From assembly GCA_014874475.1 (NCBI GenBank), contig JADBJJ010000022.1, positions 1 through 64,000 on the forward strand: a stretch of 64,000 nt of DNA, given 5' to 3'. Position 1 is the first letter of the stretch, and each line of letters starts with the position of its first letter. Source of the stretch: Chloroflexota bacterium. GTDB lineage: Bacteria > Chloroflexota > Anaerolineae > B4-G1 > DUEL01. The notes beneath the pieces were generated by a model. It was not told the origin of the DNA, ran no database searches, and saw only the letters and a list, made by a program, of their open reading frames with translations. This document shows positions 56,704 to 63,722 of this stretch, piece by piece. A program made the translations under genes and the position numbers.

Positions 56704-58203
56704 TCAAGGCCCGGGAGTCGGCGAGGGCGTCGGTGTGGGCATCGGCGTCGGCACGTACTGAATGGCCCCCGGCCGGATGCAGGAATCGTAGTTCGTCCCC
56801 AGAATGACCCGGAAATCCACCTCTCTGCCTGCCCCCGGCTGTTTCTCTACATCCTCCGACTTCAGGTGATAGAGGCGGGTCAGCAACCACAGGGGAGAGC
56901 CCTTGGCGGTGGTGGTGAAATCCACCAGCCGGGTGCGAGAGACCGGCTCCGTCGCTGTGATTCTTGTCACCACGAAGCCCTCCCAGCGCAGTCGCTCGGC
57001 CGCTACCTCCGCCATTCCCGGACGCCCCGTCCCGTCCCAGACCTCCACCCGGAAGGGGGATTGGCGCGCCCGCCCGGTCGCCGGGGGCTGCAGCGCCTCC
57101 GCGACCAGCGGCTCCAGCGCGCCGGGCACCGGCAGGAGCACGTATGCGCCGTTCGGGTCGGTCCAGTGCTCCACGTAGGGCGGGGTGATAAAGCGACTCT
57201 TCACATTGGCCCAGTCCAGGCGGGTCCCCAGCCATCCCAGATAAATCATCTCTTTCAGACCCAGGTCTGTCTCCACTGTCTGGCGGAGGGCGTCCCAGAG
57301 GTCCGGGATGCGCGTCAGCACTCCACCGCTCAATGCCTGCCGGTAGAGGGCCCGCAGGACCTGTTGCTGCCGCCGGCCGCGGTCAAAGTCGCTGGTAGAC
57401 CAGCGGGAGCGGACGTACCAAAGGGCCTGCTGACCGTCCAGGTGCTGGATGCCTGGGTAGAGGTCTATATCTACCCCCCGCGTCGGGTCGGCAGGGTCGG
57501 GGAAGGTGTCGTGGAACTCGCATTCCACCGGCACGTCCACCCCGCCCAGGGCGTCCACGATGCGGATAAAGCCGGCAAAGTCCACCATCGCGTAGTAGTG
57601 GATGGGGATGCCAAAATTGTATTCCACCGTCGCCTTGACCAGTGCCATCCGCCCGCCGGGGTAATCCTTCCCCCGGTTGATGGCGGTGTTGATTTTCCCG
57701 AACCCGTACCCGGGAATCCAGGCGTAATAGTCCCGGGGAATGGAGAGCATACTTACCGCCGGAATATCCGGGTGGACGCTGACCACGATCATCACATCTG
57801 TCCGCCCGCCGTTCTCCGCATCCAGCCCCAGCAAGAGGATGTTGATCACCCCCTCGGGCAGGGAGACAAGGGGCATCGGCGTGGGGACGGGCAGACTGAT
57901 CGGCAGCGTGTTGCTGACCGGCAGTTCATAGACCGGCGTCTCGTGGGAGATGGTCGGTGGAGACGGCGGGATCATCGTGGGCGTGGGCGTCGGGGTCGGC
58001 GTAGAGGTGGGGGCGAGCGTCGGCGTCGCCGTTGCTGTTGGCGATGAGGAAGGAGACGGCGGATGCGGATTGTTGTGGGGCACCACAATCGTTGCCGTCG
58101 GCGCTGCGCTCGTCGGGATAATAGGCACTATCAGCCCCCGCGCGGCGATGGCGGTGGCGACCAGAACGAAAATCAGGATGACAGGCGCAAACACCTTCCT
58201 CAT
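56704..58203 (-). CDS. LytR-CpsA-Psr (LCP) family protein with LytR_C domain
   Basis: 499 aa envelope protein. N-terminal membrane anchor (VFAPVILIFVLVATAIAARG), Pro/Ser/Thr-rich linker of about 85 residues (PTPTPTPT), LCP domain about 115-300 with SIPRDYYAWIPG and YVRSRWSTSDFDRGRRQQQ (arginines binding the pyrophosphate), a LytR_C domain about 370-460 (FRVEVWDGTGRPGMAEVAAE), and a Pro/Thr tail. LCP enzymes attach glycopolymers to cell wall or lipid carriers. ATG 58203. It is divergent from surE and probably the first gene of the operon reaching rodA. Confidence 0.92.
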   Translation of the reverse strand: MRKVFAPVILIFVLVATAIAARGLIVPIIPTSAAPTATIVVPHNNPHPPSPSSSPTATATPTLAPTSTPTPTPTPTMIPPSPPTISHETPVYELPVSNTLPISLPVPTPMPLVSLPEGVINILLLGLDAENGGRTDVMIVVSVHPDIPAVSMLSIPRDYYAWIPGYGFGKINTAINRGKDYPGGRMALVKATVEYNFGIPIHYYAMVDFAGFIRIVDALGGVDVPVECEFHDTFPDPADPTRGVDIDLYPGIQHLDGQQALWYVRSRWSTSDFDRGRRQQQVLRALYRQALSGGVLTRIPDLWDALRQTVETDLGLKEMIYLGWLGTRLDWANVKSRFITPPYVEHWTDPNGAYVLLPVPGALEPLVAEALQPPATGRARQSPFRVEVWDGTGRPGMAEVAAERLRWEGFVVTRITATEPVSRTRLVDFTTTAKGSPLWLLTRLYHLKSEDVEKQPGAGREVDFRVILGTNYDSCIRPGAIQYVPTPMPTPTPSPTPGP

Positions 58204-59121: not shown

Positions 59122-62100
59122 ATGAAACTGACCGTTCCGTTCATTCTACTGACCTTTCTGCTGATCCTGGCCCTCCTGAGCGGCGCGGCTCTTGCCGCCG
59201 ACCACCGCGCCGCCCTGCGCGGCATCCCCCCGGGCCTGCCCGAACCCGTCGCCGATGCCGACGTCCCTCTCCTCTGCGTCAACGCGGCGCTTCATGCTCC
59301 CTCGCAGCCCCTCTCCCTGGAGCAGACACTGGACCTCATCGCCGCCGGTGGCTTCCGCTGGGTGCGGCAATCCTTCCCCTGGGCGCTGATAGAACCCGCT
59401 CCGTACCAGTACGACTGGGCCCTCTGGGATCACATCGTAGAAGAGACGGCCCTGCGCGACCTGCGACTGATCGCCGTCCTGGAGCGTCCGCCGGATTGGG
59501 CCGGGAATCCCCCCATCCCGGTGGACTTCGCCCGCTTCGCCGGAGCCGTTGCGGCCCGCTACGGCGACCGCATAGACTACTATCAGGTCTGGCACAACCC
59601 CAACCTGCAGGACGGCTGGGGCACGCAGCCGCATCCGGCCCAGTACGCCGAACTCCTCCGTCAGGCCGCCCAGGCCATCCGCTCCGCTGACCCCGATGCC
59701 CGCATCCTTCTGGCAGGCCTGGCCCCCACGGTGGAGCAGGGACCTCAGAACATCTCCGAAGTCCGCTTCCTGGAGGAACTCTACACCGTCGGGGCGGCCC
59801 CGTATTTTGACATCGTCACCGCCCAGGCCTACGGTTTTGAGACGGGGCCGGAGGACCGGCGGGTGGGTGAGGGAGTGCTCAACTTCTCCCGCGCCGTCCT
59901 GATCCGGGAAGTAATGGAAGCCCACGGGGAGGGCGGGAAATCCCTCTGGGTCTCCCACTTTGGCTGGAACAGCCTCCCGCCGTCCTGGGAGGACGTTCCC
60001 TCTATCTGGGGAACCGTTGATGAAGGGACTCAAGTGGCGTACACCGTCGGCGCGCTGGAGCGGGCCCGCCGAGAGTGGCCCTGGGCTGGCGCGATGTGCC
60101 TTTCCCACTTCCAACCCGACCTGAGCCTGCCCGCGCCCGGCACAGGCACCCCCGACGCCCGTCGCCACTGGGGCTTTGCCCTGGTCGGGCCCGACGGCAC
60201 TCCCCGGTCTCTCTACGACGCGGTGGCCGAATGGGCCCACCGTACCCCCACCAATGACCCTGGATACTGGACCCCATCTTCCGGCGTCGCCACCTGGGAG
60301 GGTGGGTGGGAACTCTCCGAATTGGGCGCCGACCCGGGGCAGGAGGGGACGTACACGGTGACGATTCCCTTCTGGGGCACCGACTTCGGTTTGCGGGTGC
60401 GGCCGGGCAACTACCGGGCCTACCTCTACGTCGCGGTGGATGGAGAGCCGGCCAATATGCTCCCCCAGGATGAGCAGGGCCGGGCCTACGTCATCCTGAC
60501 CTCCCCGGATTACCGGCCTCAGGAAGTTACGATACCGGTCGCCCGGGGCCTTGCGCCGGGGCGGCATACCGCCGTTGTGGTCGCCGAACGGGGTTGGGAT
60601 CAGTGGCCGCTGGCAGGGTGGAGTGTGGGGTACCGCCCCGACGACCGTCTCTATCGGCGCGCCCTAACAGGCCTGGGAGCCCTTGTGCTGGGCGCGCTGG
60701 CGGGAGCGGTCGTCATCGGGCGGCGGATGGACTGGGGCCGGGTCGGGCGCGCGGTCGCCGATGTATGGGCGCGCTTCTCGGAGGGGGTCCGCTGGGTGCT
60801 TACCCTCATCGCCGCTGGCCTCCTCTGGGCGGGGGCCTGGATGACCTGGGGCCTGGAGACGGGCGGGGGCGTCTTCCGCCGCCTGGGAGAGGGCGGCAGT
60901 CTCGCAGTGACGCTGGCCACCGCCGGCCTCTTCTACTCCCCCTGGTTCCTGCTGACGGTCCTCGCTGGCCTGGTGCTCTTCGGCATCATCCTTCTGCGGC
61001 CCGATTACGGGCTGGCGCTGATCGCCGGACTGGCTCCCTTCTATACCCTTCCCCGCCCGCTCCTGGATAAAGCCTTCTCTATGGCCGAAATCGTCACCCT
61101 GATGACGCTGGTGTCGTGGGGGGTGAGAGCCCTCTCTTCTCTTGGCTCTTCCCCTTCTCCCGCTCTGCGGGAGAAGGGAGAGGGTGGCCTAAAGGGCTGG
61201 GGGTGGGGTGGGGGCGTCGTCCTGGCCCTCGTCCTGGTCTCTCTGGCCTCCACCCTCCAGGCCGACTTCCAGCGGGTGGCCTGGAGGGAACTGCGGACGA
61301 CCATCCTGGAGCCGGCCCTGTTCTACCTGATGCTGCGGACGCTGCCGATGAATCGCCAGGGGCAGGCACAAGGCCTCTCCCCGCTGTGGCGCGTGGCCGA
61401 CTTTTTCGTCCTGGGTGGGGTGGCGGTGGCCGTCATCGGCCTGGTCCAGTACGCGTTGGGGGTCAATCTCATCACCGCCGAGGGAGGATTGCCCCGCCTG
61501 CGCTCCGTCTACGGCTCGCCGAACAACGTGGGGCTCTACCTGGGGCGGGTGCTGCCGCTGCTGGTGGCGGTGGCCTTGCTGGCGCGGGACCGGAGGCGGC
61601 GGCTGGCCTACGGGCTGGCCGCGCTGCCGGTGGGCGCGGCGCTGCTGCTCAGTTTCTCCAAAGGGGCCCTCCTCCTGGGCGTTCCTGCCGCCCTGGTGAC
61701 GGTGGGGCTTCTGGCGAATGGGCGCTGGCGCTGGGCCACCCTGGTCCTTATCCTGGTCCTGGCGCTGGCGCTGATCCCGCTCCTGCAACTGCCTCGCTTC
61801 GCCTCCCTCTTCACCACCCAGGAGGGCACCACTTTCTTCCGCCTCAAACTCTGGCAGGGGACAGCGGCGATGATTCGGGACCACTTCTGGCTGGGCGTGG
61901 GACCGGATAACTTCCTCTACCACTACCGGAGTCGCTACATCCTCCCCTCGGCCTGGCAGGAGCCGGACCTCTCCCATCCCCACAACTTCCTGCTGGACTT
62001 CTGGGCCCGGCTGGGGGTCCTGGGGGTGGTGGCAGGTATCGGGCTACAGGTCGCCTTCTGGCGGGCCGCCCTCCCCCTGCGCCGCCACGCCGACCCCGAT

Positions 62101-62264
62101 GCCCGCGCCCTGGCCGTCGGCCTTATGGGCGGCGTCGCCGACATGCTGGCCCACGGCCTGGTGGACCATTCGTTCTTCCTGATAGACCTGGCCTACGCCT
62201 TTTTCCTGGCCCTGGCTCTCGCGGAACGAATGAAACAAAACGACAAAGAGACAAAAGGAGCAAA

Positions 62265-62268
<4 letters not shown>
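59122..62268 (+). CDS. Degenerate glycosidase domain fused to an O-antigen-ligase-like membrane domain
   Basis: 1048 aa. Signal/anchor segment 1-25 (VPFILLTFLLILALLSGAAL). Residues about 40-395 form a GH5/GH39-like TIM barrel (RWVRQSFPWALIEPAPYQYD). The acid/base site, usually NEPN, reads VWHNPNL, and the nucleophile site, usually TEFGWNS, reads VSHFGWNS, so both glutamates are gone. A beta-sandwich-like region follows to about 510. Then come ten or more membrane segments including the ligase loop GVGPDNFLYHYRSRYILP, HPHNFLLDFWARLG. Residues about 671-697 derive from an inserted palindrome. It probably binds glycan and ligates or polymerises it at the outer membrane face; function is inferred. 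Confidence 0.85.
61137..61217. repeat. Palindromic element inserted in frame inside a gene
   Basis: CCTTCTCCCGC (61153-61163), TCT, GCGGGAGAAGG (61167-61177) is a perfect 11-bp-arm hairpin followed by GAGAGGGTGGCCTAAAGGGC and a GGGGTGGGG stretch, the usual form of interspersed bacterial palindromes. It is translated as SSPSPALREKGEGGLKGWGW, an island of hydrophilic residues between membrane segments, without breaking the frame. Confidence 0.75.

Positions 62269-63722
<1,454 letters not shown>

Follow-up and report, generated by a model that had tools for sequence, protein, structure and literature searches.

What role is left to a glycosidase-like barrel that has lost both catalytic glutamates and is joined, within one polypeptide, to a membrane-embedded enzyme of the Wzy/WaaL type? 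The question is raised by an open reading frame in the window, i.e. the whole 64,000-nucleotide stretch of Chloroflexota DNA analysed here, whose features are collected in Table 1.

Table 1. Features of the barrel-ligase fusion; positions refer to the window.
Feature	Position	Strand	Observation
Whole ORF	59122..62268	+	Intact, 1048 aa; signal segment, PslG-like barrel, jelly roll, Wzy_C ligase/polymerase; full-length homologues
Signal peptide or signal anchor, residues 7-25	59140..59196	+	Hydropathy peak 2.65; model helix 4-31; places the barrel outside
(β/α)8 barrel, PslG/GH39-like, residues 50-376	59269..60249	+	Eight strands in the model; best match PslG
C52, β1	59275..59277	+	Cys throughout the clade (25/25), Gly in 86/88 others
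G128, loop after β3	59503..59505	+	Clade-specific; column comparison
VWHNPN, residues 156-161, former acid/base site	59587..59604	+	E to N at 159, preceding N to H at 158; PslG alignment
Q235, end of β6	59824..59826	+	Lys in the sister lineage; Asn in most stand-alone barrels
SHFGWN, residues 278-283, former nucleophile site	59953..59970	+	E to H at 279; PslG alignment
C326, β8	60097..60099	+	Cys in 25/25 of the clade, 0/33 of the sister lineage
H349, loop after β8	60166..60168	+	Invariant in the clade
Jelly-roll domain, residues 388-505	60283..60636	+	Weakly CE2_N-like; Pfam search, model
First transmembrane helix after the soluble part, residues 514-532	60661..60717	+	Out to in; model, hydropathy topology
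Membrane ligase/polymerase part, about residues 554-1035	60781..62226	+	Profile match to WaaL structure 7tpg, 5.1e-12
Pfam Wzy_C (PF04932), residues 833-970	61618..62031	+	E 2.4e-18; 66.8 bits, curated cut-off 31.7
R907	61840..61842	+	Aligns with Arg of WaaL VRLKIW; invariant in 77 fusions
H954-N955 of SHPHN	61981..61986	+	Aligns with HAHN of WaaL; His invariant in fusions

The barrel is related to PslG of Pseudomonas aeruginosa (GH39; PDB codes 4zn2, 5bx9 and 9g17) in sequence, with 5.7e-10 for the single sequence and 1e-24 for a profile. Structure prediction, proposed as a check in an earlier sequence-only reading of this DNA, supports the same assignment, with PslG ranking first in the PDB by predicted fold, but from AlphaFold models of modest quality (9 aligned sequences, mean pLDDT 66.6–66.9). 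Compared with the GH39/PslG-type members of clan GH-A, the barrel and the sequence relationship are present while both catalytic glutamate positions are occupied by other residues. In clan GH-A the two catalytic residues are located at the ends of strands β4 and β7. In our model VWHNPN is found at the C-terminal end of β4 (151–156) and SHFGWN at that of β7 (274–280), and in the sequence alignment N159 takes the place of the acid/base Glu of PslG (NEPN) and H279 that of its nucleophile (TEWGW), the catalytic residues of PslG being Glu165 and Glu276 (PMC6813494; PMC11912335). The claim of the sequence-only reading that both catalytic glutamates are gone is thus borne out by alignment and by model placement. 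Since both are likewise absent in 25 related fusions and both kept in 32 of 34 stand-alone barrels, the loss is neither chance nor sequencing error. PslG is an active endo-β-glucanase (PMC11912335) and belongs, in association with the membrane, to the machinery of Psl synthesis (PMC6813494). The window barrel is similarly tied to a membrane polysaccharide synthesis machine, whereas PslG is a separate protein with both glutamates and the window barrel is fused to the ligase with both replaced.

The second half of the earlier claim, a fusion to a Wzy/WaaL-type enzyme, holds as well: the Wzy_C domain scores above its cut-off, the reading frame is intact and the fusion is conserved in dozens of genomes. 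The only convincing solved relative of the membrane part is the WaaL-type ligase 7tpg. With WaaL and the Wzy_C family (PF04932, including PglL) the window protein shares the Wzy_C domain, the Arg and His residues and a multi-helix membrane domain with an outside loop; it differs from WaaL by its large N-terminal barrel and jelly roll and by a host in which no LPS genes were found. All 77 long fusions share R907, G925 and G927, and wherever a long fusion has a letter at the positions of H954, H1011 and D1015, these residues are identical as well. According to the topology predicted from helix count and from positively charged loops on the inside, the barrel, R792, R907 and H954 all lie outside the cytoplasmic membrane, so that the barrel and the catalytic residues of the ligase share one membrane side.

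The label O-antigen-ligase-like given in the sequence-only reading is appropriate as far as the Wzy_C/WaaL-type enzyme is concerned, but an O-antigen ligase in the strict sense, with lipid A-core as acceptor, is unlikely, because neither LpxC nor Omp85 gave a match in the 97.7% complete genome of the window, control searches being positive. That genome encodes four LytR-CpsA-Psr proteins, one of them the neighbour at 56704-58203, and one Wzz homologue, which is compatible with the role of a Wzy polymerase. Another long frame of 1161 aa in the same genome shows a weak Wzy_C match (G000:C1:78094-78261). An NCBIfam match to IctB was rejected as far below cut-off, and PDB matches to TRPV1 were rejected as chance similarity of hydrophobic helices. 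Between two membrane helices the window protein contains a loop with an in-frame low-complexity insert, SSPSPALREKGEGG... (61138-61197, residues 673-692), the DNA of which carries the inverted repeat ttctcccgctctgcgggagaa. Similar elements are scattered over genomes of the genus, and other inserts of this kind are found in homologues (L037, L038, L039); the element is a small repeat that tolerates coding sequence.

The same fusion, for which the sequence-only reading had suggested a search, is found throughout the class Anaerolineae and extends to other classes of the phylum. Some match is present in all 60 nearest genomes and in 273 of 297 genomes of the class, many of the class matches being full-length fusions of about 1000–1100 aa with 38–81% identity over the whole length; Thermoflexus and other Anaerolineae MAGs are among the named relatives, and other classes of Chloroflexota have full-length fusions as well. 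A scan of a genome collection covering all phyla, with a single protein query and exact peptide patterns, returned matches from Anaerolineae only. The window's genome is a draft of 32 contigs, which might suggest a misassembly or a wrongly called reading frame; as the fusion recurs in dozens of independent genomes, including the single-contig G056 and G299, such an artefact is hardly credible and was rejected. Stand-alone barrels carry the jelly roll too, as do ligase paralogues that lack the barrel. The latter are represented by second copies in family f2 (L044-L050, about 640–730 aa, jelly roll and ligase), which often share a genome with the full fusion.

The present state of the barrel is the last step of a staircase, leading from separate neighbouring genes with both glutamates to a fusion with both, then to the exchange of N for D, to the loss of the nucleophile and finally to the loss of the acid/base, the latter reached only in the window's own order. 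The sample comprised 114 barrels, 34 of them stand-alone; among these 34 the acid/base Glu is kept throughout and the nucleophile Glu in 32. Several genomes of other classes encode the barrel, with both glutamates, and the ligase as separate adjacent genes (L124, L130, L155, L156, L157, L166, L168). Most fusions of other classes keep NEPN and the nucleophile, and basal fusions keep both glutamates. In most Anaerolineae fusions the motif reads DEPN; the nucleophile is still present in some of them (L035, L053, L088) and replaced by H, N, Q, S or A in most. Within the window's order, families f1 and f3 show HNPN with H, D, L or T at the nucleophile position, and family f2 is still at DEPN. When the motif columns are left out of tree building, the fusions fall into a single group, corresponding to one change of state, and the glutamate losses nest in staircase order. 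The full 114-row tree contains extra losses arising from long branches; once the long-branch rows are removed, one acid/base loss and two nucleophile losses are left, one among the fusions and one in a stand-alone barrel.

Homologues with separate domains and retained glutamates, which the sequence-only reading had counted against itself, do exist as stand-alone Chloroflexota PslG-like barrels beside Wzy_C genes, but they do not restore activity to the window protein. The same two modules lie side by side there, differing from the fusion in being separate genes with the catalytic glutamates retained, and they document the ancestry from gene pair to fusion to loss. Such an ancestry argues for a shared pathway of barrel and ligase. 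Where a tabulated genome has an adjacent pair, both glutamates are retained in one or both of the barrels, and catalytic stand-alone barrels (L064, L065) are encoded elsewhere in the window's genome. A reciprocal case is seen at L114:583-1836 and L122:10535-11788, where a stand-alone barrel without the nucleophile (HEPN, SAYGWN) lies in the same region as a fusion with both glutamates. The phylum-wide fusion, the stepwise loss and the new invariant pocket residues described below had escaped the sequence-only reading.

The clade at the last step consists of 25 sequences and was defined by N159, with H158 in the same motif. Across the 475 residues of the soluble part, no more than seven columns carry a residue that is fixed in this clade but rare elsewhere, namely C52, G128, H158, N159, Q235, C326 and H349, five of which (C52, G128, Q235, C326 and H349) are independent of the clade definition. 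All seven are situated in pore strands or in loops of the catalytic face. The window protein has no cysteines besides C52 and C326, and both are absent from all 33 nucleophile-less sister fusions. As β1 and β8 adjoin in such a barrel, the two most likely form a disulfide closing β1 to β8 in the predicted fold; alternatively, they may be part of a Cys/His metal site. The cleft tryptophans 87, 99, 126, 157, 166, 276, 282, 319 and 321 are kept. As this gain of new invariant residues, C52, C326 and H349 among them, shows, the pocket was rebuilt and did not merely decay.

The loss of both glutamates would also be expected of a functionless remnant decaying after the fusion. However, in the close species pairs compared, dN/dS amounts to 0.12–0.20 for the barrel, 0.05–0.18 for the jelly roll, 0.06–0.24 for the ligase and 0.22–0.33 for the membrane linker; the barrel is therefore under purifying selection as strong as that of the ligase. 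Together with the full-length barrel kept in intact copies and the new invariant columns, this makes decay very improbable, and the conservation of the fusion and the dN/dS values led us to reject an artefact or pseudogene.

We favour the reading, at a probability of about 60%, that a former PslG-like endoglycosidase now serves as a non-hydrolytic glycan-binding domain that guides its fused extracytoplasmic ligase/polymerase. By analogy to PslG within the Psl machine, the active ancestral glycosidase would have worked beside the same ligase. The present barrel would bind a glycan, either the growing chain or the acceptor, without cutting it, also in vitro, and would hold it near the active site of the ligase, so that transfer is guided in cis. 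The acceptor could be a surface acceptor other than lipid A or the chain itself.

A structural spacer or a protein-protein docking domain making no contact to sugar would equally render the catalytic residues dispensable, and the barrel-less paralogues composed of jelly roll and ligase are in line with it. A spacer, however, needs neither clade-specific fixation on the catalytic face nor the retained cleft tryptophans, and we regard it as unlikely.

That the pocket did not drift but acquired invariant Cys, His and Asn in its rebuilding could also indicate a barrel that is still catalytic through new residues, be it H158, H279/D279, H349, E91 or E205, or a metal held by C52, C326 and His. Of the 25 clade members, 21 have H or D at position 279 (17 H, 4 D), the conserved E91 and E205 sit in loops of the catalytic face, and H158 and H279 could take part in an unusual chemistry. 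On the other hand, position 279 is L or T in the remaining 4, the metal-site version has only two cysteines at its disposal, which are better explained by a disulfide, and we know of no GH-A enzyme that functions without the β4 Glu. We therefore consider retained catalysis rather doubtful.

Somewhat bolder is the idea that the emptied pocket became a new functional site composed of C52, H158, N159, Q235, H/D279, C326 and H349, which may bind either a metal or some specific sugar, and that the sister lineage may have turned to substrate-assisted cleavage of 2-acetamido sugars; we put it forward as a speculative possibility. The sister lineage combines an invariant D158-E159 dyad with a free nucleophile position, and an Asp-Glu pair is what GH20 enzymes employ for substrate-assisted cleavage of 2-acetamido sugars. 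Such a switch is proposed because the exchange of N for D preceded the loss of the nucleophile. If true, the ligase-fused barrel would show how a cutter evolved first into an altered cutter and then into a holder.

In 21 neighbourhoods no constant operon partner was found across the class. In 9 of them (L149:5688-7328 and eight other loci) the gene immediately upstream encodes a protein with a G5 domain and a β-propeller, a possible partner of the fusion; GT4, GtrA, an epimerase and a second Wzy_C gene occur near the fusion in some. In the window an alpha-amylase-family gene follows at 62265-63722 (+), its TTG start overlapping the stop of the fusion; such a gene adjoins the fusion in another genome of the genus as well (L132).

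No description of this barrel-ligase fusion was found in the open-access literature; both modules are of known kinds, and within the reach of our literature searches the novelty lies in their combination, in its history and in the rebuilt pocket. It is still an open question by what means enzymes of the Wzy/WaaL type select their glycan and regulate chain length, and the fusion ties the readable pocket of a former glycosidase to such an enzyme. Every evolutionary stage persists in living relatives, namely the separate active pair, the fused active, the nucleophile-less and the fully rebuilt barrel, so that matched sets can be tested. The family thereby illustrates plainly how an enzyme can become what is probably a binding domain while joined to the very machinery that it served.
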